A stretch of DNA of 44,738 nucleotides from a virus, in IMG/VR virus record IMGVR_UViG_3300035670_000406, positions 1 through 44,738 of that record. One strand, written 5' to 3'. The translations under genes and the position numbers were made by a program. Under the pieces are notes generated by a model. The model ran no database searches. It was given only the letters and a program-made list of their open reading frames with translations, and had not been told where the DNA came from. Below, piece by piece: positions 6,801 through 44,738 of the stretch; the first letter of the stretch is position 1, and every line of letters starts with the position of its first letter.

Positions 6801-9800
6801 GGTAACAATAACGTTTCTTCTTGGTACTCCGTAGCTATCGGTTCCGGAAACAATACAGGATATGGAAGCTTTGGAATTGGTATCGGAAATACCAGTACTT
6901 ATTATGCGTTTAACGTAGGCCGTTATAATACTGGGAATAGTTATTCATCACTTAATATTGGTACCAATAACAATAATAACAGTTACAGCTCTATTAACGT
7001 TGGTATTAACAACAGTAATAACAATGGAAGGTTATACGGTAGAACATTATCAATCGGATATGACAACACCGGAAACCAAGGAACTATTATATTCGGTGCG
7101 GACAACAAGAATAATAATAGAACCACAATCTTCGGTAATTCGAATAATAATTCCAGTGACGGTTATGGTTATATTTACGGATCTGGTAATAGAATTACTA
7201 GAGGCGGATACATTTATGGATTGAATAACCTTACAACTGACGGCGGATTCGCTGTAGGTGCCAATTCTACTCACGTTAGAGGCGGTTATTCATTCGGTAC
7301 TCTAAACAACCATACAGACGGCGGTTATTCGTTCGGCCATAACAACGTTGTAAACGGAGCTACTGGAACAGCAATGTCCTTTGGCTATGGTAACAATGCT
7401 TCTGGTTCAGGTATTGCAGTTGGATATGGTAATACGGTCTCCTCATCAGGATTGGCTTTCGGAGCAAATAATACTTCTTCAGGACTTTCCTCGGTTGCAC
7501 TAGGTAACGGTATAACAGTTAGTGGATCAAATAGCGTTGGTATCGGGCTATCTTCTTCTATCTCTTCTACTGTAGCAGACAACAATATTCTTGCTATTCT
7601 AGGTGGAAGAGTTGCTATTGGCACAAATACGGTTGGATCTGCCAATCCTCTGGTTGGAAGTATTCTTGATATCAACGGCGCAATGGATGTTGTCGGTACT
7701 AACGGTGAATATTATAGAAGAGGTCAAAGACTATTCGATTATATTCGTTCGACTGTAGTAAACAAAGATTATATTATCGACAATGCTGATAGTGCTTGGA
7801 TTAAGCAGGTTGCGAACTTTAATTATCTCAGAGAGACTCTAGTACCTCAGTTCTTCTTCTCTCACGATAAATTAACTAACGACCTTTATTATACCGGTGG
7901 CGGAAACGTAGGTATTAAAACAAACAATCCTCTATATGATCTTCACGTAAATGGTGATATCAATTTTGACGGCCGCCTCTTCCTTAATGGTGATCTTGTC
8001 ATACCGAGTATAGATTCTATCGGTGACGTATACATCAGTCACGTTACCAATGAATATTACATCGGACCAGACAGTGCAGAAGAATATTTCGATTCTAACT
8101 ATATTCAAGCTCGTCAGGCTTATTTCGATTATGAAAACATCATTAACGAAGGTTACATTAACACCAGAATTGATCCGGATCTATTCTTAGATTCTGCGGA
8201 AGCAACTACCCTTATTAATAACGCATTAAATTCAACGGTTGCTTTCAAACTTGACACTCTGGGAAGAACTACATATAACCCAACCCTTTCAGAAGCACCA
8301 TTTGGACCAAGAGTTGCTATTGGTGCAGCACCAGATTTCACCCATGTACTTAAAATAGGCGGGCAGGTTACTATCGGAGACGGTCAGGGACTTGTTGGAA
8401 GTCTTAAGGTCTGGAACGGTAATATCAATATTGAAAACGGTAATCTTCTAATCAACGGCGCACCTATTGTCGGTATTTGGAAAGATGAAACATATGTAAC
8501 ATATAATCCCCCAGAAGGTGCTAAGTTTATCGGTATCGGTAAATCGACACCACTGTACGACCTTGACGTAAATGGAGCTATTAACGGAACCCAAATCTTC
8601 GTAGACGGTTTAAACCTTCTTGAAGATATCCTAGATTCAACATACATTCAAGATCGTCAAATCAGAGTCGATTCTGAATCCCTTATGGCATTTATTGATA
8701 CCGATTATGTAAGATTCAGAGCAGACTCTGCATACGTACAGCAGATCATTAACAGTGATTATATCCTAGGTATAGCAGACAGCTCTTACATCAAAACTGC
8801 TGCTGATAGTGACTACATCAAGAGTGCAGCTGATAGCGACTACATCAAGAGTGCTGCAAATCAGGATTGGATCCGTCTAAATGCTGATAGCGACTACATC
8901 AAGAGTGCAGCTGATAGCGACTACATCAAGAGTGCTGCAAATCAGGATTGGATCCGTCTAAATGCTGACAGTGATTATATTAAGACCGCAGCAAATCAGG
9001 ATTGGATCCGTCTAAATGCTGATAGCGACTACATCAAGAGTGCTGCTGATAGCGACTACATCAAGAGTGCAGCTGATAGCTCTTGGATCAAATCCATTGC
9101 GGATTCCGAATACGTACAGAGCCTCATTGATAGCTCATATATTGCAGGAATAACGGGTATTGGATCGAGAAATATTGATTTTGGTACTCATACCATATCG
9201 TTCTCAAATAGCTATCAAGATATCCTATCACTTCCAAACCCAGGTTCATATGAGGGTATGTTCGCCGTTGTTAGAGCGACCAACAGCCCATACGTTTCTG
9301 TTAATGGCGATTGGGAAAGATTGGCTATCGGCCAAAATGTAAAGACAACTGATAATGTTGTGTTCAATAGAGTTGAAACTACTGATGGATTAGTCGTAGG
9401 AGGAAACCTACAAGTTAACGGCGTTACGACTACCATCAATACACAAACTCTTGAAGTTACCGATAATATGATCTATATGAACGGTGCTGAATCTGAAGGC
9501 AGCCCAATTCAGTTCGTAGATATCGGATTTGCTGGTAATTATAATGAGGGTGGAACGTATGCACATGCAGGATTCTTCCGTGACGCAACAGATGGTATTT
9601 GGAAACTCTTCGATGGATATACTCCAGAACCAGATTCAAGCCCACAAATCAATACTGCACATGCGTCCTTTAACCTTGCAACAATTCAGGTGGGATCAAT
9701 TGTTACAGATACCATCTCTCGTAACTCAAATGTCCCGATAGGAATATATGGATCTGCTTCGTTAATTCCTGTTATAAAGATTGATTCCTCAGGATTTATC

Positions 9801-24100: not shown

Positions 24101-24828
24101 GGAAAGATTCTGACGAGATTATATTTACGGGTTCAAATGAATCCCCTCCTGGCGATTTAAACCTTCAATATGATGGCACTGCTATTTCACCCGGATTATT
24201 TAGTCCGTATACGGCTTCAACAAAGGGATGGAAACCCGATTTAGTCGTATCACCCGCATACACTGGCGCATCCATACAGAACATTTCGGGAATAGGTCAA
24301 CAATTCTTATTCAAATTCGATTCTACTACTTATTTCGATTCCTCTTTTTCAATTGATGTGTATTTAAAATTAATCAATAAAGACGATTTAGGAAATAACA
24401 TCGGATGGAACTATGAATTTATGTCTCCTGAAAACGTAATTAAGATTGCGAGAAAAGGAGATAGAGAATTCGTTATTAAAAGAAATCAGGACGTTTCTTT
24501 TACTGATTATAGCACATATCAGTCTATACTATTCCTTTCTTCGTATAGATTGGATTCTCCAGAGTATATGGGTATCTTTAATGTAGTCCCTGGTGTGAAT
24601 GATTACTCAGAAGCGGTTTATCCGGTTACAGTAACTCATAACCGTTTTGTATCAGCAATAGAAGCAAATTCTAATGTTATATCTTTAAGAATGTTTGAGA
24701 ATTTTGATTTAATAGATTCAACCTTTGATATGACAGGATTCTCTTATGATTCCACTTACGATTACGACAGATTAAACCCTGACCGACTAATTAGGATTTA
24801 TGATAGTGTGGGGGCACTTCCAATATGA
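21112..24828 (+). CDS. Large LamG / beta-helix tail protein
   Basis: 1,238 residues. There is no evident ribosome site, and the start is nine bases after the previous stop. Concanavalin-like pieces are visible at about 42-90 (NFSLEFWSYTFSN), 113-225 (PYTFEFWGRN, then WEHHAITYDGYDHRYFRNG) and 245-380 (IRLFIDGTLVSSQ). Residues about 635-815 look like a right-handed parallel beta-helix start (ASLNNGDALVLPAGTYTASG, then ILICGQTNNPNDVIIN). A further LamG-like domain lies at about 840-985 (WIHHAISYDSLGLRIYKDG). The C-terminal 200 residues are unassigned. Beta-helix plus LamG suggests glycan binding; no polysaccharide-lyase catalytic residues could be identified. The stop overlaps the next start (ATGA). 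Confidence 0.75.
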   Translation: MASYIYNNPSQLLPVGPNLTDRAFVISENKAYTFVDLSSFLSYSYSFNGAGSLVADSLGDLDSNNFSLEFWSYTFSNTGRSYFTFDSKEKIVKVTEVARSLGFDSQGNIPILSIAPYPNYSSLYFDGVDNCITSSNITSVDILQPYTFEFWGRNVDRTNDFEILTLGDGADTIVSIRKDRIVVNGSPFTLNTSIHGYDSWEHHAITYDGYDHRYFRNGTEIQKTGTSKYNISLGSSIASSSFSLVSDAAFQIKTVIPTSPTDGTIFSAGTSTLGTKLAIEGGGNILSLTCKDLTASTSSIPKDSNDHVISWDYQIDPKRIRLFIDGTLVSSQQGTGQFSSGNWADQASKEFDEFQVNINDIQKIPYYPYYGSGTVTSVFYRMENNNLYINPSVNYFYTPLTINGPNSSVINPNGNKLYYFEYYPNSPNFPTFSGWPFIISRQASLLDNNLFYHRWIGSYNRSYERNSNGLSVNQLNFYDYARYGSSINSVIIDETAKRIYNFTNGVYRSADDFSSSNMTTPDTFVLGITEAEWWQIGYNASNETKFVFNRSEWILDPNILYKNVVGSGTSFGEYAGTTKPSWINSSNTSNLRYYPQSLKTTNQKASIGAKVSSFEYDETGLQYAQKYVSFTGGSVVTHTGSTNITSRIASLNNGDALVLPAGTYTASGVQIDTTHSSIFGFKNILICGQTNNPNDVIINYTPLDLRDIPIFGNNSNANSQLAYLTFNRGFYTRHTSNYETSIFRSGAGKLYRAVLDFKNKNVSWLYSPNYPGLTINRYVIECSFKNYSSWLGYYNGYIQGLQLIKCRFSKGFTDESILASFGQQDTFCVFDSDQSKNLEFKGHLFDVSASNEILYNSNFTIPSKKMVDSSTKFLLETERRGDNLFSLRDNGKVIVNDVEVDSIYNPVDTWIHHAISYDSLGLRIYKDGTLKSTINTTFDGFSIDKSTLKIGRDDRVNTIAGNYDKIYYTGNLKDIILSKEIKYTGSNITVRSSDKIGKDSDEIIFTGSNESPPGDLNLQYDGTAISPGLFSPYTASTKGWKPDLVVSPAYTGASIQNISGIGQQFLFKFDSTTYFDSSFSIDVYLKLINKDDLGNNIGWNYEFMSPENVIKIARKGDREFVIKRNQDVSFTDYSTYQSILFLSSYRLDSPEYMGIFNVVPGVNDYSEAVYPVTVTHNRFVSAIEANSNVISLRMFENFDLIDSTFDMTGFSYDSTYDYDRLNPDRLIRIYDSVGALPI

Positions 24829-27107
24829 GTATAAAAGTGGATAACATCTTCTTAGAAAAAGGAAGCGCAATTGTCGGCAATAAGGTTTATGGATATAATG
24901 ATAGCGCCTGGAGAGTTGTAGGACTTTTAAATGACAATTTCACGTCTGTTGATGTATCGAAGGGGATTATAAACCTCTCTTTCGATTCAGACTTCGATGA
25001 AGTTACTGATGCAATTAACCCTATTATAGATTTTGTAAAAACTGACGAAAACGGTAATACGATTACTTGGGATGCATCTGTTCTTGCTAGAGCGTCTAAT
25101 AATATCCTAAACATTATCCCACCTCCTGCTACAGTTTCTTATACCCCTCCTTATACATTAGTCCCAAATACGGATTTTAAAACTGGGGTAAACAAAAGAA
25201 ATACGGTTGACGTAGTTTTTACGGGGCGGGTTTCAAATAGTATGCCTGATTTAGGATTCGATTCTGGTGATGTAATAGCTGAATTTGATAAAAAGATCGA
25301 GATTGTTTTAAGATATAATCCTATTTCTACGTATGTTATCGGAGCAAATCACCCTAAAGCATTGAACCTGATAAACATGGGTACGCCTGAGATTCAGTAT
25401 AAAGCATCTACATCTTTTACTCTTCCTTCAGATCTAAGTGGATTAGCTTTCGACAGTGACGGAAATAAAATGTTCGTTCTTTCGAATTCTGGTGATATTG
25501 TATACTCATATCCAATTAGTGGATATGATATAAGTACGGTCGTAAATACCCCAGCCCAGTTTACGATTTACGGTTATCAGGGTGATGATGTTACTGATAT
25601 AGATTTCAACAGTACAGGAACGAGAATGTACATTGTCGACAATACGTATAAATTCGTTCGTCAATTTAATCTTTCTGTTCCCTTTGACATAACTACATCA
25701 GAATTTATAGAGAATTATTACCAATCCTCTTCTTTATTTGATAAAACTTCTATTTCCGAAAATGGCGAGTATATGTACTCATTAGATAATTCAGGTAATT
25801 TGTATAAGTTTGATTTGAATAAAAATTATGAAATATACACCTCAGGGTATAACTATAAAACTGTTACCAATTTCCCTGCATATGAAACAACGAAAATATA
25901 CCCCGGGTATCCAAGTTATTATGAGCAATATATAGCTGGAGCACAGGTAGGTTGGTTTACGGTGTATTATGGTTGGAACACAATTTTTTATCATAGATCA
26001 TTTCCACAATGTTTTACTTTTTCGCAAGATGGTTCTCGACTTGTAATTGCTACAGGTCTTTCTATCTTTAATGGAAGAATTCAAACTTATCAACTTTCTA
26101 CCCCGTGGAATCCGACCACTCGTACTCTCGCATTTACTTCATTTCACGAATTTGGATATCCAACTACCGAAAGATTTTTACGTAACTATAAAGAAAACGG
26201 AATATCTCATATCCAATTTAATCCTGATGGTACAAAGTTCTTTGTACTAGACAGAGAAACGACTTCTCTCTATCAATATAATTTATCAACTCCATTTGTT
26301 ATTAATTCTATTGGAAGCAGCACATTAAAACCGGTGGATAAGCTTATCGCATCTGGTGGATATGATAAAGCTTATAAATTAACCCAGATTCCAGATCCTG
26401 CAAAAACAGATTCTTGGGTAGAAGTAAATCAAATTAATACATTTCAGTTCAGAGAAAACGGGGCGATATTATATGTTCATAATAATGTAAACGTTTACAA
26501 ATATGGCCTTTCTACCCCATATGATATTTCATCGGTATCGTATTTAGGGTCCTTCCCGATAGCGGAGCTGGGCAATAGCTCATCGTTAGTAATAAGATCT
26601 AATAATCTTTACATTGCTAAACCGAATATCATTTGGCAATATCAAATGGATAGTGACATACCTTCTGCATTTTTTAAATATAACGAAAAAAGTTTAGCAG
26701 TGCCAGATTCGACTCTCACTTCTATATACTTGAACGATTCCGATAATGAGATTTATGTCGGATCATCGAACAGAGTATATAAGTTTGATCTATCGGAAAA
26801 TAGCGAACTATCATCTGCTACTTTAGATTCTTCGGTATCAGTTGTAAATGGTATGAACGGATTTACGATATCAGAAACGAATGATAAGCTTTTTGTATGT
26901 TCTGGTACTAAAATTTATGAGTATGACATAAACGACAGTGATTGGTCTGCTACAACTTTTGCAAATCAAGAATATCAGTCAACCGGATCAATTACAAATA
27001 TACGAGGAATGAAATGGAATGAAGTCGGAGACGTTTTCTTGACTGTTGGTGATACTAGGGTTGAATCGTATAAGACTAAAAATCTTTTTAGAACGAAACC
27101 ATTATAA
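24825..27107 (+). CDS. Beta-propeller-like tail protein
   Basis: 760 residues, overlapping the previous gene by four bases. Residues 1-195 are an unassigned N-terminal domain. From about 199 onward, repeats of 40-60 residues follow the pattern of propeller blades: SGLAFDSDGNKMFVLSNSG then IVYSYPISGYDIST; DIDFNSTGTRMYIVDN then RQFNLSVPFDIT; FSQDGSRLVIATG then IQTYQLSTPWNPT; IQFNPDGTKFFVLDRE then LYQYNLSTPFVI; and VYKYGLSTPYDIS. At least six blades are discernible. Such repeats occur in exposed phage proteins and in bacterial surface proteins; protein or glycan binding is inferred, not shown. A T4-type late promoter box overlaps its stop. Confidence 0.75.
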   Translation: MSIKVDNIFLEKGSAIVGNKVYGYNDSAWRVVGLLNDNFTSVDVSKGIINLSFDSDFDEVTDAINPIIDFVKTDENGNTITWDASVLARASNNILNIIPPPATVSYTPPYTLVPNTDFKTGVNKRNTVDVVFTGRVSNSMPDLGFDSGDVIAEFDKKIEIVLRYNPISTYVIGANHPKALNLINMGTPEIQYKASTSFTLPSDLSGLAFDSDGNKMFVLSNSGDIVYSYPISGYDISTVVNTPAQFTIYGYQGDDVTDIDFNSTGTRMYIVDNTYKFVRQFNLSVPFDITTSEFIENYYQSSSLFDKTSISENGEYMYSLDNSGNLYKFDLNKNYEIYTSGYNYKTVTNFPAYETTKIYPGYPSYYEQYIAGAQVGWFTVYYGWNTIFYHRSFPQCFTFSQDGSRLVIATGLSIFNGRIQTYQLSTPWNPTTRTLAFTSFHEFGYPTTERFLRNYKENGISHIQFNPDGTKFFVLDRETTSLYQYNLSTPFVINSIGSSTLKPVDKLIASGGYDKAYKLTQIPDPAKTDSWVEVNQINTFQFRENGAILYVHNNVNVYKYGLSTPYDISSVSYLGSFPIAELGNSSSLVIRSNNLYIAKPNIIWQYQMDSDIPSAFFKYNEKSLAVPDSTLTSIYLNDSDNEIYVGSSNRVYKFDLSENSELSSATLDSSVSVVNGMNGFTISETNDKLFVCSGTKIYEYDINDSDWSATTFANQEYQSTGSITNIRGMKWNEVGDVFLTVGDTRVESYKTKNLFRTKPL

Positions 27108-27110
27108 ATA
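27103..27110 (+). promoter_or_regulatory. T4-type late promoter box (TATAAATA)
   Basis: Exact match to the T4 late -10 consensus TATAAATA, spanning the stop codon of the 24825 gene and 48 bases upstream of the 27158 start. The predicted transcription start would be a few bases downstream. Recognition by a gp55-like sigma factor is inferred from the T4 system. Confidence 0.65.
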
Positions 27111-27131
27111 ATTGATAGCAATCAATTTTTT
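27110..27131 (+). terminator. Weak terminator-like hairpin
   Basis: A 7-bp stem (AATTGAT with ATCAATT, loop AGCA) is followed by a T tract. The stem has only one G-C pair and overlaps the late promoter region, so it may be fortuitous. Confidence 0.25.
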
Positions 27132-27157
27132 AAATAATCCTTTACTAAGGTAAAAAG

Positions 27158-31023: not shown

Positions 31024-32763
31024 ATGGGATACGGAAGCTCAGTTAGTATAGACTTTTTTACAAAAAAGATCTCAATCGAAACGAGAAATCAAGAAAAGTC
31101 CGTAGCATCTTTTCCAGTTGATATCTTTTCAGGATCCCCAGCTTCTATTTCAGTAGAGGCTGGGGATTCTTCGTCTTTTCAGGAAACCGTTTTAAAAGAC
31201 ACAATTTCTACAATAAATTTTAGTACTACATTAAATAGATCGATTTATTCATCGTCACAACCCATCTCAGGAAAATTTTCCACTTACATAAACTTTTATT
31301 CTACAGATTCTAATCTTTGGAGTAATGAATCTTTTACTTCTTCTTCCCTTTCTGTAATTAAACTTTTTACTCAAGATTCTGATAAAGGTGCTACTATTAT
31401 TCAACCTATATCAAGTTTGGGCATAGGGGTAGCAATAGAAGGAGCTGGAGAAGAGGTTTATACCGTTCCCGGCACGTACACGTGGACGTGCCCGGCAGGG
31501 GTAACCTCAGTTTCAGTAGTTGCGGTTGGTGCGGGGGGTTCCGGTGGCTATCAATGGTCTTCTGGTGGTGGCGGTGGTGGTGGCCTCGGTTGGAAGAATA
31601 ATATCTCAGTAACTCCCGGAAATACCTATACTGTTGTGGTGGGGGATAAAGGAGCTGCGGTTGCTAATGCAACTAATACTGGAGGCAAAGGCGGATCGTC
31701 CTATTTTATTGACACGTCAACAGTTTGTGGATTCGGTGCCGGTCAAGGAGGTACTGGTTCATCAGGAACCACCAATGGTGCATACGGGGGAGGTTATTCT
31801 GGTGATGGTGGTGGAGTAGGTGGTAATGGAGCTATTGGGGGATCTTGGACCCATGGAGGCGGAGGTGCTGGTGGATATACCGGCAACGGGGGTTCTAGAT
31901 ATAATGATACAGCTGCTACTGGGGGTGGCGGCGGTGCCGGTCAATATTACTCCAGTACATATGGGGTTGGCGCCGGTGGTGGTGTCGGATTATATGGCGA
32001 GGGACCTAGTGGTATAACCTATGCAAATGGAACCGGATACGGCGGTAGAGGAGGCTCTGGCGGAGGGGACGGTATGGCAGGTGAAACCTCGAATTCATCA
32101 TCTACCAATATATGGGAAAGATCTTCACAATTCACAACAACAGGTAACAATCAAATCTTAGGCGGACAATTTGGTGGTGGCGGGGGTGGATCCGGTACTT
32201 CAAAGGGCGGCGGTTACGGTGGGACCGGCGCAGTTCGTATTATGTGGGGTTCGGGACTTTCTTTCCCTAATAATGCTAAAAATCCGTCATCTTACTTAGA
32301 TAGCGGAACTTTAGGTCAGTATTCAATAGTTTATGATTCTACAAATGTTTCTTCAGTCCTTTATGATAGTGATTATTATCAATATAGTACTTCCTCAACT
32401 TCGAAATTAATTCAAATAGATTATTCTTTGGATTCTTATTATTCATCGGAACCGAGTCTTTCCCCGAGTGTTTCTTATTCTTCGGTGGTTACTAACAATT
32501 CTTCTCTTATTGAAAATTTAAATCAGTTAGTAAATGTTACGTATATTAAAACGCAAAAAGACATCCCTTTCTTTTCAGGATCAAATAGTAATTCTAAGAG
32601 GGTTGAATTTAAGATTGAAAATAATCTAGATTTAATTTATACAGAAGAAAATGGATTCAGTAAAGTCGAAGGTATTAATGATAACAATGATCCTAGACCG
32701 ATTGTTATATCTCAGGGTACTGCTGAAGAAATTAGCACCGGACCAGTTCAATCTTGGTATTGA
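31024..32763 (+). CDS. Glycine-rich adhesin-like tail protein
   Basis: 579 residues; the start follows a 26-base gap without a strong ribosome site. Residues 1-140 are Ser-rich beta segments. Residues 144-409 form a glycine-rich domain opening with VYTVPGTYTWTCPAGVTSVS and containing many GGGG and GGxGG runs with aromatic and Asn residues between them. In T4-like phages, polyglycine-helix domains of this kind occur in gp38-type receptor-binding tips, and the opening motif is common in glycine-rich phage proteins. The C-terminal 170 residues are Asp-Ser/Tyr-rich (YDSDYYQYSTSS, IDYSLDSYYSSEP). Host recognition is the favoured inference. Local GC content is raised, mainly by the Gly codons. Confidence 0.75.
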   Translation: MGYGSSVSIDFFTKKISIETRNQEKSVASFPVDIFSGSPASISVEAGDSSSFQETVLKDTISTINFSTTLNRSIYSSSQPISGKFSTYINFYSTDSNLWSNESFTSSSLSVIKLFTQDSDKGATIIQPISSLGIGVAIEGAGEEVYTVPGTYTWTCPAGVTSVSVVAVGAGGSGGYQWSSGGGGGGGLGWKNNISVTPGNTYTVVVGDKGAAVANATNTGGKGGSSYFIDTSTVCGFGAGQGGTGSSGTTNGAYGGGYSGDGGGVGGNGAIGGSWTHGGGGAGGYTGNGGSRYNDTAATGGGGGAGQYYSSTYGVGAGGGVGLYGEGPSGITYANGTGYGGRGGSGGGDGMAGETSNSSSTNIWERSSQFTTTGNNQILGGQFGGGGGGSGTSKGGGYGGTGAVRIMWGSGLSFPNNAKNPSSYLDSGTLGQYSIVYDSTNVSSVLYDSDYYQYSTSSTSKLIQIDYSLDSYYSSEPSLSPSVSYSSVVTNNSSLIENLNQLVNVTYIKTQKDIPFFSGSNSNSKRVEFKIENNLDLIYTEENGFSKVEGINDNNDPRPIVISQGTAEEISTGPVQSWY

Positions 32764-37185: not shown

Positions 37186-37544
37186 GAGATTCTGATGGTA
37201 ATGTAGGGAATGATTTCGAATACTCTAGAAGAACATATTACGATCTTATAGAAAAAGGTCAAGATGCTCTCGAAGAAATGATTACGATAGCAAAAGCTTT
37301 AGAACATCCTAGAGCTTTTGAAGTTGTTGCAGGTATGATTAAAAATATCTCTGATGTAAACGACCGTTTAATGGACCTTCATAAGAAAAGAAAAGAATAC
37401 CTTAAAAAAGACGAAGAGCCGAAATCTACAACAAACAATAATGTTTTTATCGGATCTACTACCGATCTTCAAAGAATGCTTCAGGATATGAATCGTAAAC
37501 AAAATGATATTATTGATATCACTGCGAACATAGAGGATAGATGA
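37182..37544 (+). CDS. 16: Small terminase subunit gp16 homologue
   Basis: 120 residues, shorter than T4 gp16 (about 164). The small subunit recognises DNA and regulates the gp17 packaging motor. The sequence contains YSRRTYYDLIEKGQDALEEM, a helical central region (AKALEHPRAFEVVAGMIKNI, then DVNDRLMDLHKKRKEYLKK) consistent with the coiled-coil oligomerisation core, and NNNVFIGSTTDLQRMLQD near the C-terminus. Assignment relies on this pattern and its position directly between gp15 and gp17, with ATGA overlaps at both ends. Shortness is in line with marine T4-like phages, from memory. Confidence 0.88.
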   Translation: MRDSDGNVGNDFEYSRRTYYDLIEKGQDALEEMITIAKALEHPRAFEVVAGMIKNISDVNDRLMDLHKKRKEYLKKDEEPKSTTNNNVFIGSTTDLQRMLQDMNRKQNDIIDITANIEDR

Positions 37545-39133
37545 TGAAAAGCGAAAATTATCTAGGTAACCCCAATATTAAAAGAGATGGGGTTATACAA
37601 GAGTGGACGCAATATGAGGTTCTGGAGTATTCGAAATGTATGAAGGATCCAGCTTATTTTGCTCGTCATTACTGTAAGATTATTTCTTTAGATAAAGGAT
37701 TGGTTCATTTCGATCTATATCCGTATCAAGAAAGAATGTTCAATCAATTTAATGCTGAAAGATTCAATATTGTTTTAGCGTGCCGCCAATCTGGTAAATC
37801 AATCTCTTCAGTAGCATATCTTCTGTGGTATTCTATATTCCATCCTGAAAAGATTATTGCTATTCTCGCAAACAAGGGCGCGATCGCGAGGGAGATGCTC
37901 GGGCGCGTAACTCTTATGTTAGAGAATTTACCATTCTTTCTTCAGCCAGGATGTAAAGCATTAAACAAAGGTTCTATAGAGTTCAGTAACAACTCTAGAA
38001 TTATTGCTGCTGCTACTTCTGGTAGTTCAATTCGTGGTTTATCCGTTAGTTTACTTTATATGGATGAGTTTGCATTCGTTGAAAGGGCTGCGGAATTTTA
38101 TACTTCTACGTACCCTGTTATTTCTTCCGGAAAGGGAACAAAGGTTATCATTACCTCCACTGCAAATGGGGTAGGAAACATGTTTCACAAGATTTGGGAA
38201 GGAGCTGTTCAAGGTATTAATGAGTTTAAACCTTTTAGGGTTGACTGGTGGGACGTACCAGGGAGAGACGAGAAATGGAAACGAGAAACCATTTCGAATA
38301 CGTCTGAAATACAATTCGAACAAGAGTTTGGTAACTCTTTCCTTGGTTCAGGTGATACTCTTATATCTGCCGAGTATCTCTTAAAATTAAGAAGTATGAC
38401 GCCTAAATCTATTACTTTTGACGAAGTAAAAATATACGAAGAGCCGAAAGAAAATCATCAATACGTGATGACAGTTGATGTAGCGAAAGGAAGAGGGCAG
38501 GACTACTCTACGTTTAACGTGATCGATATTAGCGCTAATCCATTTAAACAGGTTGCTGTATATCGCAATAACCTTATCTCTCCTATCCTCTTCCCAAATA
38601 TTATTTATAAGTATGCTAATTCTTACAATAAGGCAAATGTTGTTATAGAATCGAACGATGCGGGACAAGTTGTCTGTAATGGATTATATCACGATTTGGA
38701 ATATGAAAATATGTTTGTAGAATCTACGATAAAAGCAAACGCTTTGGGATTAACCATGACGAGAAAAGTAAAAAGGATTGGTTGTTCGTCTTTTAAAGAC
38801 CTTATAGAAAATAATAAAATAGACGTAGTAGATGCAGATACAATATTAGAAATTTCTACCTTTGCAGCCAGAGGTCAGTCATACGAGGCATCACAAGGAA
38901 ATCATGATGACCTAGTAATGAACTTTATTCTTTTCTCTTACTTTATTGGGACTTCTTTTTTCGGAGAACTTACTGATATTAACATTAAACAAATGATGTT
39001 CGAACAAAGGATGAAGGAGATTGAAGATGACGTTCTTCCATTTGGATTTATGGATGATGGTCTGGAAGAACCTATGAAAGCTCCTAGACCGGGTTATGGG
39101 GAATGGGCTATAGAAACCGTCGAAAGTTTCTAA
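37541..39133 (+). CDS. 17: Large terminase (packaging ATPase-nuclease) gp17 homologue
   Basis: 530 residues (T4 gp17 about 610). ATP-driven translocation and headful cutting of DNA at the portal. Walker A is CRQSGKS (81-87, Lys86); Walker B with catalytic Glu is LLYMDEFAF (171-179, Asp175, Glu176); the coupling motif is TSTANG (205-210). The RNase H-like nuclease domain shows TVDVAKGRGQDYS (Asp313), VVIESNDAG (Glu370) and NHDDLVMNF (Asp456/Asp457), the expected acidic triad. GAGG lies six bases upstream of the tandem ATG ATG start, and the gene overlaps gp16 by four bases. A short GC-rich patch at 37875-37907 is unlike the rest of the gene. Confidence 0.96.
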   Translation: MMKSENYLGNPNIKRDGVIQEWTQYEVLEYSKCMKDPAYFARHYCKIISLDKGLVHFDLYPYQERMFNQFNAERFNIVLACRQSGKSISSVAYLLWYSIFHPEKIIAILANKGAIAREMLGRVTLMLENLPFFLQPGCKALNKGSIEFSNNSRIIAAATSGSSIRGLSVSLLYMDEFAFVERAAEFYTSTYPVISSGKGTKVIITSTANGVGNMFHKIWEGAVQGINEFKPFRVDWWDVPGRDEKWKRETISNTSEIQFEQEFGNSFLGSGDTLISAEYLLKLRSMTPKSITFDEVKIYEEPKENHQYVMTVDVAKGRGQDYSTFNVIDISANPFKQVAVYRNNLISPILFPNIIYKYANSYNKANVVIESNDAGQVVCNGLYHDLEYENMFVESTIKANALGLTMTRKVKRIGCSSFKDLIENNKIDVVDADTILEISTFAARGQSYEASQGNHDDLVMNFILFSYFIGTSFFGELTDINIKQMMFEQRMKEIEDDVLPFGFMDDGLEEPMKAPRPGYGEWAIETVESF

Positions 39134-39145
39134 GGATCTTTTTTT

Positions 39146-39153
39146 CATAAATA
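39146..39153 (+). promoter_or_regulatory. T4-type late promoter box (CATAAATA)
   Basis: CATAAATA lies 12 bases after the gp17 stop and about 68 bases before the gp18 ATG, in the longest intergenic gap of the window (88 bases). It is well placed to drive the highly expressed sheath and tube genes. Confidence 0.6.
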
Positions 39154-39221
39154 TATCTGAGTGAATATCCGTATTATGGAAAAAACCTTATAATTCACCT
39201 AGATTGGAAAAGGAAAGAGAC

Positions 39222-41210
39222 ATGGCTTTATACACAGCATCAGAGTCTCCGGCAATTATTGTAAGAGAAGTTGATCTCACCAATGGGGTACCCAACGTGC
39301 CAACATCAACTGGGGTAATAGTTGGTGATTTTCGTTGGGGACCAGTAGAACTGCCGGTGCTTGTAAATAACGAAGCTACATTAGCTAACACTTTTGGAAA
39401 CCCAGATCCTGATAGATCTGTAGATTTCCATTCAGCATCTTACTATCTAAGATATTCAGATGATCTTTATGTAGTAAGAGCAATTAGAGACGTAACACCC
39501 GGCGCTGCAGCCGATGTTTTAGTTAACCTAGATATTAACGGTCAAGTAGGATCGATTACGGTATCTCCAAACGGAGGATATGTTACCGCTCCTAGCGCAA
39601 CAATTAGTGATCCGGACAGCGGTACTGCTCCAGCACTAACAGTTACGTTTGATGCTAATACCAATAGCATTACTGCTATTACAGCAGCGGCTGGTTCTTA
39701 TCTATATAACACAACACCAACTATTACCATAACTGGTGATAGAGGCGCAGCTGCTAACGCTTTTGATAATGGTGGAAGCCCTACCATATATCCTGTCATT
39801 AAAAATGAAGATAACTTCGAAAACCAAAAGGCTTCATTAGCCACTAACGGTCACAGAATTATTGCAAAATGGCCAGGAGAACTTGGAAACAGCCTAACTG
39901 TTTCTATGTGCCCGGCAAATGATAGCGATTATAGTTCTTGGGCTTACAAAACATACTTCGACGGCGCTCCTGGAACTTCTACCTATGCAGATAGAAAAGG
40001 TGCTTCCAATGACGAAGTTCACGTTATCGTTATTGACACAAAGGGAGAATTTACTGGAGCACAAAACACAGTTCTAGAAACATTCAAATTCCTTTCTGTT
40101 GCATCTGACGCGAAAAAGACTGACGGAGGAAGCAATTATGTTGTGGAAGTCGTAAACAGGGTTTCAAAGTATATTTGGCTGGCTTCTTTACCAGCTGCAC
40201 TCGGTACTAATAGAAGCACTGTAGCGACAAGTGGTAAGAATTACTACTCAGGAGCAACTGGAACTTATACAGCTTCACTTGTAAACGGATCAAATTCTTT
40301 CGCTCTGAGTGTCGCAAACTATCGTGATGGATACGACTTGCTCAACGATCCTAATACCTATCTTGTAGATTTCCTTATTGCTCCAGGAATTTCTAATGCA
40401 ACTTCTCATAAGGAAGTAATTAACCATATGGTTTCTATTGCAGAGCTAATTAGAAAAGATTGCGTAGTTGTAGCATCTCCGAATAGATCAGCAGTGGTTG
40501 ACGATCCTACAGAAGCAAGAGTGAATATTCTAACCGATCTTTCATCTGGTATTACAAGAAGCTCATATCTTGTAATGGATGCAAACTATCTGAAAGTGTA
40601 TGACAAATATAACGATCAGTACATTTACATTCCAGCAGCTTCTTCTACAGCTGGTTTAATGGCTTCAACTGATAATAACTTTGCTCCTTGGTTCTCTCCA
40701 GCAGGAACAAGAAGAGGAAGATATTTCGGAGTAACTCAACTTGCTTATAACCCAAACAAGCAGGATAGAGACGAGCTATATAAGGCCGGGTTTAATCCGA
40801 TTGCAAATATCCCAGGAGAAGGTATACTTCTATACGGAGATAAGACCCATCTATCTAGACCTTCTGCATTCGATAGAATTAATGTTCGCAGGCTATTCCT
40901 TGTTCTAGAAAGAGCAATTGCAAGAGCTGCACAAAATATTCTATTCGAATTCAACGATGAATTTACAAGAGCAGAATTTGTAAATATCGTTGAACCCGTG
41001 CTACGAAACGTCCAAGGTAGAAGAGGAATTACAGACTTTAAACTAGTTTGTGACGAAACCAATAATACACCAGAGATTATTGACACAAATCAGTTTATTG
41101 CTACTCTCTTCATTAAGCCTGCCAGATCCATTAACTATATCACACTCAACTTCGTTGCCGTAAGAACTGGTGTATCTTTCGAAGAAGTTGTTGGTGATAA
41201 CAGAATATAA
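39222..41210 (+). CDS. 18: Tail sheath protein gp18 homologue
   Basis: 662 residues from ATG 39222 (T4 gp18 is about 659). This start is supported by AAGGAAAGAGA just upstream and by the family N-terminus MALYTASESPAIIVREVDLT; a TTG at 39204 would only add six residues. Contractile sheath subunit that polymerises around the gp19 tube. Family features include GVIVGDFRWGPVELPVLVNN, SASYYLRYSDDLYVVRAI and, near the C-terminus, NVRRLFLVLERAIARAAQNI, FNDEFTRAEFVNIVEPVLRN and VAVRTGVSFEEVVGDNRI. Residues about 104-175 are an inserted beta-repeat segment (GSITVSPNGGYVTAPSATIS). gp19 follows after 12 bases. Confidence 0.95.
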   Translation: MALYTASESPAIIVREVDLTNGVPNVPTSTGVIVGDFRWGPVELPVLVNNEATLANTFGNPDPDRSVDFHSASYYLRYSDDLYVVRAIRDVTPGAAADVLVNLDINGQVGSITVSPNGGYVTAPSATISDPDSGTAPALTVTFDANTNSITAITAAAGSYLYNTTPTITITGDRGAAANAFDNGGSPTIYPVIKNEDNFENQKASLATNGHRIIAKWPGELGNSLTVSMCPANDSDYSSWAYKTYFDGAPGTSTYADRKGASNDEVHVIVIDTKGEFTGAQNTVLETFKFLSVASDAKKTDGGSNYVVEVVNRVSKYIWLASLPAALGTNRSTVATSGKNYYSGATGTYTASLVNGSNSFALSVANYRDGYDLLNDPNTYLVDFLIAPGISNATSHKEVINHMVSIAELIRKDCVVVASPNRSAVVDDPTEARVNILTDLSSGITRSSYLVMDANYLKVYDKYNDQYIYIPAASSTAGLMASTDNNFAPWFSPAGTRRGRYFGVTQLAYNPNKQDRDELYKAGFNPIANIPGEGILLYGDKTHLSRPSAFDRINVRRLFLVLERAIARAAQNILFEFNDEFTRAEFVNIVEPVLRNVQGRRGITDFKLVCDETNNTPEIIDTNQFIATLFIKPARSINYITLNFVAVRTGVSFEEVVGDNRI

Positions 41211-41222
41211 TAGGAGATACAA

Positions 41223-41765
41223 ATGGCTATTCTAGGCGTTAATGATTTTAAATCAAAACTTAGAGGCGGCGGCGCACGCCCTAATCTATTCCAAGTAATT
41301 CTTGGGTTTCCAGCTTACGTGGATGGCGATACTGAATTGGCATCCTTTATGTGCAGAGCTGCTGCTCTTCCGGCATCTGTAATGACACCGATTCCGGTGT
41401 TTTTCAGAGGTAGACAGCTACAAGTTGCGGGTGATAGAGCATTCGAACCTTGGTCAGTAACCATCATCAACGACACTGATTTTAAACTCCGTAGAGCGAT
41501 GGAACAGTGGATGAATGGTATTAATGCTCACCAAGCAAACACTGGATTTACAGATCCTCTTGACTATCAAAGAGATCTAAGAGTTCAGCAACTTGATAAA
41601 GATGGTTCTATTTTGTATGAATACGCTTTCAGAGGCGCATTCCCAACCGCAGTAAGCCCAATAGAACTTTCTTACGAGAATGTAAACACGATTGAAGAAT
41701 TTACTGTAGAATTCCAAATACAATATTGGGAAAGTTTCCATCCTCAGGGTAAAGTTACTAGCTAA
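41223..41765 (+). CDS. 19: Tail tube protein gp19 homologue
   Basis: 180 residues (T4 gp19 is about 163). Hexameric rings of this protein form the inner tail tube through which DNA passes. Recognisable parts: GVNDFKSKLRGGGARPNLFQ at the start, FMCRAAALPASVMTPIPVFF, then RGRQLQVAGDRAFEPWSVTI and VSPIELSYENVNTIEEFTVE near the end, followed by FQIQYWE. ATAGGAG precedes the ATG. It is probably cotranscribed with gp18. The stop is followed by a strong hairpin and a late-promoter-like box before gp20. Confidence 0.95.
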   Translation: MAILGVNDFKSKLRGGGARPNLFQVILGFPAYVDGDTELASFMCRAAALPASVMTPIPVFFRGRQLQVAGDRAFEPWSVTIINDTDFKLRRAMEQWMNGINAHQANTGFTDPLDYQRDLRVQQLDKDGSILYEYAFRGAFPTAVSPIELSYENVNTIEEFTVEFQIQYWESFHPQGKVTS

Positions 41766-41772
41766 TTTTGAG

Positions 41773-41780
41773 AATAAATA
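41773..41780 (+). promoter_or_regulatory. Late promoter-like box (AATAAATA)
   Basis: AATAAATA lies eight bases after the gp19 stop and 52 bases upstream of the gp20 ATG. It matches TATAAATA at seven of eight positions. Its right half overlaps the left arm of the 41777-41817 hairpin. Confidence 0.45.
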
Positions 41781-41817
41781 TAAGCAGGGATAGAACAATA
41801 CTGTCCCTGCTTATATT
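41777..41817 (+). other. 17-bp hairpin between gp19 and gp20
   Basis: AATATAAGCAGGGATAG (41777-41793) pairs with CTGTCCCTGCTTATATT (41801-41817) with a single U-G wobble and a 7-base loop. No T tract follows on either strand, so it is not a canonical intrinsic terminator. It could act as an mRNA 3' stabiliser, processing site or factor-aided terminator. Confidence 0.75.
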
Positions 41818-41832
41818 GAGAAAAGGATAATT

Positions 41833-43350
41833 ATGGCCGACAATTCACTAAAGCTTTTCGGATTCGAAATAAAGAGGGTTTCTCCAAAGAAGGAGATTAA
41901 CCTTAAATCTGTTGTTCCTGCTACTGATGACGATGGATCCGGATACGTAACAGCATCTGGAAGTCATTACGGTCAGTATATTGATATTGACGGTAATAAT
42001 GCAAAAGATAATCATCAATTAATAGCAAAATATCGTGGTATTGCTGCTCACCCGGAGGTAGATACCGCGATTGAAGATATTGTAAACGAAGTAATTATTT
42101 CAGATGACGATAAAAGTCCAATTGAAATTAATTTAGACGAAGTTGAAGTATCAGATAAAATTAAAAAGCAGGTCAAAGAAGAATTCGACAATATTCTCTC
42201 TATGCTTAATTTTAATGAAAATGGTCACGATCTATTTAAAAGGTGGTATGTGGATGGTAGGGTCTGCCATCATTTAGTTGTTGATGATACGAACGAAAAA
42301 ATGGGAATAAAGGATATTCGTTTTATTGATTCTATAAAGATTAGAAAAGTAAAAGAGATTAAGAAAAAGAAAGATCCTCTTACGAATGCAGAAGTTATTG
42401 AAAAGGTTGATGAATATTTCATTTATCAAGATACCCCCGGTCAACAAAAAGATGCGGTAAAATTTACTACGGATTCTATTAGTTATATTACTTCAGGATT
42501 ATTAGATGAATCCAGAAAAAGGGTTACATCTCATTTACATAAAGCAATTAAACCGGTCAATCAACTTCGAATGATGGAAGACTCGCTGGTCATTTATAGA
42601 TTAGCTCGAGCCCCAGAAAGAAGAATTTTTTATATAGACGTTGGAAACCTTCCAAAAGGTAAAGCCGAAGAATATATGAAAAACATAATGACTAAGTATA
42701 GAAATAAATTAGTTTATGATGCTGCGAGCGGAGAATTGAGGGATGACCGTAAGCATATGTCGATGCTCGAGGATTTCTGGCTTCCTAGAAGGGAAGGCGG
42801 TAGAGGTACAGAGGTATCTTCGCTGCCAGGAGGAGATAACTTAGGTCAGATTGATGATATTATCTATTTCCAAAAAAGGGTTTATAGAGCTTTAAACGTT
42901 CCTGTTAATAGGCTTGAACAAGAGGCTCAGTTTTCCCTTGGAAGATCTAATGAAATTACCAGAGATGAAATTAAGTTTCAAAAATTTATTTCAAGACTTC
43001 GTAAAAGATTCTCTTTCCTTTTTCTTTCTATTCTCAAAAAACAGTTGCTTTTAAAAAAGATTATTACTGAAGCCGACTGGGAAGATTGGAAGAATGATAT
43101 TAGAATAGATTATGTAAGAGATAATCATTATTCAGAGTTAAAAGATAACGAAATATTGAAAGAAAGAATACAAACCCTCGATATGATTAATCAATACGTC
43201 GGGGAATATTTTACTAAAAATTGGGTCCTAAAAAATGTCTTGAAGATGACAGAGGACGACATAAAAGAGTTGGAAAAGGACGTAGAAGTTGAGAAAGATA
43301 AAGAGCCCCCTGGAGAGGAACAGCCTCCTTCTAACTCAGTCCCAGATTAA
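41833..43350 (+). CDS. 20: Portal vertex protein gp20 homologue
   Basis: 505 residues (T4 gp20 about 524). Dodecameric portal at the head vertex, partner of the gp17 motor and the gp13/gp14 neck. Diagnostic segments: LIAKYRGIAAHPEVDTAIED, then IVNEVIISDDD; LFKRWYVDGRVCHHLVVDD; LVIYRLARAPERRIFYIDVG, then NLPKGKAEEYM; DFWLPRREGGRGTEVSSLPG, then NLGQIDDIIYFQKRVYRAL; and NVPVNRLEQEAQFSLGRSNE, followed by ITRDEIKFQKFI. The acidic C-terminal tail ends EPPGEEQPPSNSVPD. An AAAAGGATAA ribosome site precedes the ATG. A separate late-promoter-like box lies 52 bases upstream. Confidence 0.96.
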   Translation: MADNSLKLFGFEIKRVSPKKEINLKSVVPATDDDGSGYVTASGSHYGQYIDIDGNNAKDNHQLIAKYRGIAAHPEVDTAIEDIVNEVIISDDDKSPIEINLDEVEVSDKIKKQVKEEFDNILSMLNFNENGHDLFKRWYVDGRVCHHLVVDDTNEKMGIKDIRFIDSIKIRKVKEIKKKKDPLTNAEVIEKVDEYFIYQDTPGQQKDAVKFTTDSISYITSGLLDESRKRVTSHLHKAIKPVNQLRMMEDSLVIYRLARAPERRIFYIDVGNLPKGKAEEYMKNIMTKYRNKLVYDAASGELRDDRKHMSMLEDFWLPRREGGRGTEVSSLPGGDNLGQIDDIIYFQKRVYRALNVPVNRLEQEAQFSLGRSNEITRDEIKFQKFISRLRKRFSFLFLSILKKQLLLKKIITEADWEDWKNDIRIDYVRDNHYSELKDNEILKERIQTLDMINQYVGEYFTKNWVLKNVLKMTEDDIKELEKDVEVEKDKEPPGEEQPPSNSVPD

Positions 43351-43367
43351 TATTAAGAGATTAACGA

Positions 43368-44738
43368 ATGTATGATATCATTCGATATGAGACAGATAAT
43401 GGAACCAGCGGATTCTTTACAAGCGTTCCTACTGGTCCTGCTGATACTCTTATCTCAGATCCCTATCCTAGGTCTGTTACTCGAAATATTGAAATCCCAT
43501 ATGATACAAAATGGATTATATTTTCAGTAGAACTTGAAAACGCCGGTGATCTTTTCAGCATTGGAACCACGGGTTTTAGAACGTGGAGTATTCATTCTGT
43601 AGCAGGTTTAGATTTAAATACTCTTAGAAATATAAATGATACCAGTCTTTTGGGTGATCCGTCATTAAGAGTCGGGGACGAAGCTTATAATTTAAACTAT
43701 GTTAATGGCGGGCCAGGGGCAGGAGGTACATCACCGGGGGGTTTAAATCATGGCATAAAGATAGATATTGACCAAAATACAATAGATAATGTAAATAGAG
43801 AAATAGCTTTTTGTATTAATACTTATAGAACAAGACGCGAACAATTCTCTGGTTCTATTAAAACATTAGAATCAGAAATCTGTGGGGTTTTTCAATTAGT
43901 TCTAAACCCTCCTGGACCAGATCCTGAAGAAGATTCTGATTTAGACTTTACCTTACCTCAAGAAGATGCTATAGATCTATCATATGCTAAGATAGATTCA
44001 GCTGATATAGATTATCTTCGAAGCAAATCCATTAATGTTAACAGCGGCGAATCTTGTTCAACCGAAACCGATATAAATGAAAATGGTATTCGGTTAATAA
44101 ACAACTGTGACGATGCTGAGACATTAATAACAAATAATAGTATACGAATTAATTGTGGGGATTCTTCGAATTACTCATTGTTAACCTGTGAGACACTTAT
44201 ATTTAATGATTCAGCTAATGATGAACTTTCTGCTCTAAATTCTAAAGGTCTATTGACATATCCATACTTTTATGGAAACGATGGAATAGAATATATTCCA
44301 GATAGCGCATCGATTAAATTTGATCCGTCTATTCCCGCTTGGGTTTTTGATCCTCCTCTTCCATCTTCGGGGAGTGGCAGTGGAGGATCCGGAAGCGACG
44401 GAGGTACTGATTCTTTACCAGTAGGGGAACCCGGTCAATTATTATCTTATCAACCTCCTAGAGAACCGAATCCATTTTTCGAAGGGGATGAACTAATCCC
44501 TAATGGCACTCATTTTATGGATTATGCCTTAAAGGCAGGTAAATTCGTTTGGGGCGAAGATGAAGTAGAGGAAGCAAAGGCTACCCCGCCACTGTCACAA
44601 TTCCAAGATTTAGATTCAGGATCTAAGATAGATTATTTCAGTGGGTTTGTAGGATTCTCGGATTATGCTATTCGAGAATTTGATACAGATCCTGAGATCG
44701 GAACACAACCGTTTAATGATTCTGACAGTAAAGTTTGG
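43368..44738 (+). CDS. Unknown virion-type protein after the portal gene (3' partial)
   Basis: Reading frame open from ATG 43368 to the right edge (457 codons), 17 bases after the gp20 stop, with a weak AAGAGA upstream. It starts MYDIIRYETDNGTSGFFTSV. Residues about 127-180 include NVNREIAFCINTYRTRREQF, which is helix-prone, then a Pro/acidic linker (NPPGPDPEEDSDLDF). KIDSADIDYLRSKSINVN (about 208-225) carries the same DSAxI motif as the tail fibre genes. Four Cys follow in NSGESC, NNCDD, INCGD and LTCET, spaced 12 to 17 residues apart. A Gly/Ser linker (SSGSGSGGSGSDGG) lies at about 333-346. It has no resemblance to T4 gp67, gp68 or gp21, which follow the portal in T4. Probable structural protein of unknown role. 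Confidence 0.75.
   Translation, partial: MYDIIRYETDNGTSGFFTSVPTGPADTLISDPYPRSVTRNIEIPYDTKWIIFSVELENAGDLFSIGTTGFRTWSIHSVAGLDLNTLRNINDTSLLGDPSLRVGDEAYNLNYVNGGPGAGGTSPGGLNHGIKIDIDQNTIDNVNREIAFCINTYRTRREQFSGSIKTLESEICGVFQLVLNPPGPDPEEDSDLDFTLPQEDAIDLSYAKIDSADIDYLRSKSINVNSGESCSTETDINENGIRLINNCDDAETLITNNSIRINCGDSSNYSLLTCETLIFNDSANDELSALNSKGLLTYPYFYGNDGIEYIPDSASIKFDPSIPAWVFDPPLPSSGSGSGGSGSDGGTDSLPVGEPGQLLSYQPPREPNPFFEGDELIPNGTHFMDYALKAGKFVWGEDEVEEAKATPPLSQFQDLDSGSKIDYFSGFVGFSDYAIREFDTDPEIGTQPFNDSDSKVW

Follow-up and report, generated by a model that had tools for sequence, protein, structure and literature searches.

The 67-nt gap between the tail tube gene gp19 and the portal gene gp20 of this virus (gp19 stop at 41765, gp20 ATG at 41833) holds a late-promoter box that runs into the arm of a long inverted repeat, and raises the question of what the hairpin does and which of the adjoining messages it serves. 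The window, the whole 44,738-nt stretch analysed here, is an IMG/VR virus record whose nearest relatives, at both the DNA and the protein level, belong to the marine T4-like phages. Far more copies of sheath and tube are needed than of the portal ring, and yet the genes are neighbours. The features of the locus are collected in Table 1. Past the portal gene, the window has a long open frame (43370-44738) that appears to leave the window end; the same place in Phage C48C1 is occupied only by a 122-aa hypothetical protein.

Table 1. Features in and around the gp19-gp20 gap of the window
Feature	Position	Strand	Basis or remark
Terminase large subunit	37541-39133		PHROGs
Late box CATAAATA ahead of gp18, from which gp18-gp19 is likely transcribed	39146-39153	+	
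gp18, tail sheath gene, first in the unit reading into the hairpin	39222-41210	+	PHROG 23, E 3.6e-117
gp19, tail tube gene	41223-41765	+	PHROG 45, E 1.2e-63
T4-type late-promoter box AATAAATA, putative gp20 (portal) promoter	41773-41780	+	fits NATAAATA of S-PM2-type phages
Left arm of 17-bp stem, AATATAAGCAGGGATAG	41777-41793	+	first 4 nt common to box
Predicted +1 of portal transcript (+/- 1-2 nt)	41786	+	rule of PMC1524935
Loop AACAATA, 7 nt	41794-41800	+	
Right arm of stem, CTGTCCCTGCTTATATT	41801-41817	+	
Shine-Dalgarno-like AAAGGA of gp20 (approximate), outside stem	41822-41827	+	sequence; unpaired in main stem
gp20, portal gene	41833-43350	+	PHROG 213, E 1.5e-194

The hairpin in the window is far stronger than expected by chance. 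The 17 pairs of the stem are 16 Watson-Crick pairs and one U-G, so the pairing described in the first-pass annotation is confirmed, with coordinates exact to the base, as is its remark that a T tract is missing: the sequence directly 3' of the stem, GAGAAAAG, has no T in 8 nt. The stretch from the stem end to the gp20 ATG is GAGAAAAGGATAATT. Folding of 41760-41830 gives -26.1 kcal/mol, compared with -8.4 +/- 2.5 for dinucleotide shuffles (z -7.0; 0/200), and a separate fold of the gap alone gives z -8.1. The hairpin itself has -24.4 kcal/mol, with an AT-rich outer part and a GC-rich core. The 44.7-kb window holds only two stems of this class. The second, at 31131-31170, is an 18-pair inverted repeat (AGGATCCCCAGC.../...GCTGGGGATTCT) of about -30 kcal/mol, the strongest hairpin of the window; it sits within ORF 31024-32763 (PHROG 4474, unknown function) and would read GSPASISVEAGDS. 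An Rfam search of the window gave no match at gathering score, and a sigma-70 promoter scan returned counts at chance level and was uninformative.

Related loci show that the fold is kept while its sequence is not. Two IMG/VR scans yielded 156 loci with both gp19 and gp20, which contain 62 distinct gaps, the window included; gap counts given here are of distinct sequences, not of independent events. Records with a tube gene number 2,383 in all. When the gaps are aligned by gene, almost no stem sequence is common between lineages, yet nearly all of them fold a hairpin in the same place in the gap, mostly of -14 to -26 kcal/mol. The hairpin has z<-2 in 59/62 gaps and z<-3 in 42/62 (median z -3.6), the exceptions to z<-2 being lineages L148 (z -1.2), L075 and L068. 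Whole loci were also scanned in 50-nt windows, of which some 800-1900 per locus lie outside the gap in most cases; nothing folds better than the gap in 23 of 53 loci, and in the majority of the rest the gap ranks with the top few. Loops are UUCG in 12 of the 62 gaps and GAAA in 7. Cultured phages Mosig, S-RIM2, S-RIM12 and ACG-2014e have no strong hairpin in this gap, and in L068 and L075 it is weak or absent, so the element is useful rather than essential and dispensable in some lineages. (Vibrio phage Va1 and Campylobacter phage CP81 were left out, as they have no portal gene annotated directly after the tube gene.) Such absences speak for a functionless chance hairpin in an AT-rich gap; the low z values and the stem kept through sequence replacement argue the other way, and this explanation, already disfavoured by the conservation found, has a negligible probability. 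In this abundant group of marine viruses the RNA structure persists although its sequence is almost entirely replaced.

RNAalifold on all 62 gaps jointly returned a consensus energy of 0.0, because the stems cannot be aligned between lineages. A missing consensus is as expected if stems get replaced rather than merely drift, and covariation was therefore examined inside sub-lineages only. Sub-lineage A2 (11 gaps) has 97.9% of cells paired, against 57-67% with the 3' arm slid, and shows G-C/A-U swaps at two pairs; its five two-sided cells compare with 1.6 +/- 1.0 after shuffling, and none of 500 shuffles reaches the cells or the score. Sub-lineage A3 (6 gaps) is 100% paired, against 42-71% in the slid controls, and has an A-U/G-U/G-C series at two pairs that is not beyond a letter shuffle (60/500). 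The stem of the window has another register than those of its nearest relatives; column-wise covariation with the window included failed for this reason, and the A2 and A3 changes concern pairs other than the window's own. Many relatives are also close, and the pair changes in the two sub-lineages are supportive but modest. The first-pass annotation had proposed compensatory changes among relatives as the check on the stem; this came out in part, with the hairpin widely present and two-sided changes at two pairs each in A2 and A3, those of A3 staying within the shuffle.

The promoter box is more widely kept than any stem sequence. In the window it matches the 8-bp NATAAATA / TATAAATA late-promoter pattern and lies about 52 nt upstream of the portal ATG, that is, 5' of a late (virion) gene. 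The NATAAATA late promoter has been reported for marine T4-like phages (PMC2984593), and the T4 late-promoter box occupies -13 to -6 (PMC1524935), which places +1 of the portal transcript near 41786, inside the left arm. The box was previously said to overlap this arm, and it does. It is predicted to be used as the portal promoter. Of the 62 gaps compared, 53 contain NNTAAATA and 8 more a TATANNTA variant, bringing the total to 61/62; in the remaining gap (L080) neither pattern matched. The forms of TATANNTA seen are TATAAGTA, TATAGATA and TATATATA, which are possibly variant late-promoter boxes; one or other of them replaces NATAAATA in the gaps of L033, L036, L044 and L161 (Phage C48C1). Among cultured T4-like phages the box is present in the gp19-gp20 gap of 18/19, Phage C48C1 having TATAAGTA instead. 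Elsewhere in the window, 7 T follow right after the terminase stop, directly 5' of the CATAAATA box (39122-39160), without a strong hairpin.

The position of the box relative to the hairpin is not conserved, which is the key new point of this analysis. In the clade of the window the box either sits immediately ahead of the stem or overlaps the stem base, and in KP27 and RB16 the box is followed by an intact stem. The box is in the hairpin loop in L035, L054, L064, Melnitz-1 and Acj61, and the loop of Bellamy contains most of it. It overlaps the right-arm end in ACG-2014d. In HTVC008M it forms part of the right arm, most of the hairpin lying 5' of it, and four phages (RB32, ACG-2014f, S-N03 and Aeh1) have the entire hairpin 5' of the box and separate from it. 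In all layouts found, whether the stem follows the box, covers it, encloses it or precedes it, the stem comes after the gp19 stop, and so only gp18-gp19 read-through mRNA always holds the hairpin whole. Short gaps alone may account for the overlap of box and stem, and in the window it is probably a by-product of packing both signals into 67 nt. Another proposal, that the repeated meeting of box and hairpin is itself selected, would have an upstream polymerase that folds the hairpin and a gp55/gp45 initiation complex on the same DNA interfere with each other, making the junction an insulator that sets portal dosage. It is very unlikely; if true, the junction would switch between sheath-tube read-through and portal initiation.

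How much of the hairpin the portal transcript itself would carry was estimated for the 61 boxed gaps, with +1 placed six nt 3' of the box. The transcript would keep 70% or more of the hairpin energy in 41 gaps, between 50 and 70% in 6, and under half in 14; in 20 gaps the stem begins at or after the predicted +1. The window falls in the last energy class, keeping 45%: in a transcript from 41786, eight of the 17 pairs would remain and form a hairpin of -10.9 kcal/mol at the very 5' end. The first-pass annotation held that such a transcript would lose most of the left arm, which is right by base count but leaves this shortened stem out of account. Its further claim, that only read-through RNA could fold and the portal transcript would escape, did not survive the comparison: with most of the energy kept in 41/61 gaps, escape is not the shared design.

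These numbers would allow a role in the portal leader, where a 5'-proximal stem would guard against 5'-end-dependent decay or tune portal translation. The 41 gaps that retain the hairpin, the 20 in which the stem starts at or after +1, the intact stems of KP27 and RB16 and the 8-bp stem that would remain in the window are all consistent with it. It does not fit the phages with the hairpin wholly 5' of the box (RB32, ACG-2014f, S-N03, Aeh1) or largely so (HTVC008M), nor those with the box within the loop (Melnitz-1, Acj61, L054, L035, L064), since the portal transcript there cannot carry the hairpin whole; the main stem also leaves the Shine-Dalgarno uncovered. A leader hairpin is an unlikely explanation. 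As the stem would also fall in the portal leader in most of the clade, a 5' role keeps some probability.

The loss of energy in the window, from -24.4 to -10.9 kcal/mol, also recalls the promoter-timed switch of T4 gene e, in which a fold in read-through RNA would shut portal translation and RNA from the late promoter, without the left arm, would be translated. The geometry is the same as in the T4 e leaders (PMC3014915), but what defines such a switch is lacking: the main stem stops at 41817, 15 nt 5' of the AUG, and the Shine-Dalgarno is free, so sequestration of the gene e type was rejected. Truncating geometry is found in a minority of gaps (14/61), and because the upstream genes are themselves late, there is no early read-through obviously in need of silencing. 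A switch of this kind is very unlikely.

The end of the stem bears on termination. The stem-loop of an intrinsic terminator is present, with its strong fold and GC-rich core, and the U tract is not; a canonical terminator in the window gap was rejected on this account. The T run after the stem is at most 3 in 57/62 gaps, so that with the T-less 8 nt of the window intrinsic termination is unlikely here, and a stabilising or processing end is more likely. A strong hairpin 3' of an ORF without a U tract is what a 3'-end stabilising hairpin would look like. A terminator scan of the window gave no match at the gp19-gp20 hairpin; terminator callers that require a U tract miss such hairpins. A weak terminator or attenuator without a perfect U tract could still allow partial termination and so set the ratio of sheath and tube to portal. 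The T-tailed hairpins in the gp19-gp20 gap of ACG-2014f (T7) and S-N03 (T6), the T-rich tails of L069, L081 and L082 and the putative terminator annotated in this gap of KP27 point in that direction. The T-less 8 nt of the window and the short T runs in 57/62 gaps argue against it, as does a related phage, L143, that has a T8-tailed UUCG hairpin about 5 kb downstream, so that canonical terminators are available to this phage group. Weak termination is improbable.

The L143 element (9145-9230) lies about 5.1 kb downstream of the gp20 start, probably after gp23 by its position. It consists of two hairpins, the second of them the UUCG hairpin with T8, which is directly followed by TATAAATA in the canonical terminator-then-promoter form. 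In the window, at 27103-27133, the end of ORF 24825-27107 carries TATAAATA, with ATTGAT-AGCA-ATCAAT and a T run directly behind it; here a late box leads straight into a terminator-like hairpin.

The reading preferred here, to which we give a probability of roughly 60%, is that selection maintains the hairpin as an RNA element closing the gp18-gp19 late transcript at its 3' end, where it protects the sheath-tube mRNA. On the sequence evidence, a role at this 3' end is the only one that would fit all layouts. Polymerase starting from the gp18 late promoter would transcribe the entire inverted repeat, and the folded stem would set the 3' end of the transcript, mainly by blocking 3'-5' exonucleases after termination or cleavage downstream; in lineages that keep a U-rich tail, partial termination may occur at the stem. 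The abundant sheath and tube message would be kept stable and read-through into the portal limited, and the portal would restart from its own late promoter. A conserved hairpin together with a promoter at this junction is a concrete candidate for the means by which T4-like phages separate sheath and tube dosage from portal dosage.

A literature search on cyanophage late-promoter hairpins found nothing specific, and the known systems compared are bacterial or from T4 and T4-like phages. Hairpins of the bacterial REP-like or processed 3'-end type are, like that of the window, GC-rich, without a U tract, just after an ORF and within a transcription unit (PMC13289151). In E. coli, which may not be the host of this phage, GC hairpins without a U tract are typical of REP-stabilised or Rho-processed 3' ends, and in a cyanobacterium ends without a U tract exist, fewer than half of them structured (PMC13289151). 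The REP-like hairpins have no sequence in common with that of the window.

T4-like phages have Rho-independent terminators downstream of gene 23, where they are conserved, and between genes 35 and 36 (PMC1524935). These share with the window a GC-rich stem-loop after a late structural gene, and differ in the U tract, which is missing from the window and most relatives.

Inhibitory leader hairpins are found in T4 genes e, soc, 49 and I-TevI (PMC3014915). Among these, gene e provides the nearest known design with a late promoter in the 5' strand of a stem. There the late promoter is documented to lie in the DNA from which the 5' side of the inhibitory stem is transcribed, so that late-promoter transcripts have a truncated stem (PMC3014915), and this is the established form of the idea in the first-pass annotation. 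The window resembles gene e in that the box overlaps the arm from 41777 and the predicted +1 at 41786 is inside it. It differs in that the Shine-Dalgarno and AUG are outside the main stem and the upstream genes are late, not early; truncation of the stem is also not conserved in relatives.

The late-gene junctions of RB32, a T4-type phage, are closest in their overall make-up. A hairpin is combined with TATAAATA at 8/9, 18/19, 19/20 and 23/24, and in the region covered (L182, 72000-112000) all late-gene gaps of more than 60 nt with a late box, which are these four, hold an adjoining hairpin; at wac/13 there is a hairpin and no box, and at 14/15 a box with no strong hairpin beside it. CUUCGG intercistronic hairpins are a well-known feature of T4. 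UUCG-type loops are found both at T4-type late-gene junctions and among the relatives of the window. RB32 and the window have in common a strong hairpin and a late box between virion genes of the same direction, gp19-gp20 included. The RB32 hairpin stands apart from the box, on its 5' side; that of the window shares part of its left arm with the box and has no T tract after it. The junction in the window is a compact, overlapping version, without a U tract, of a junction already familiar from T4.
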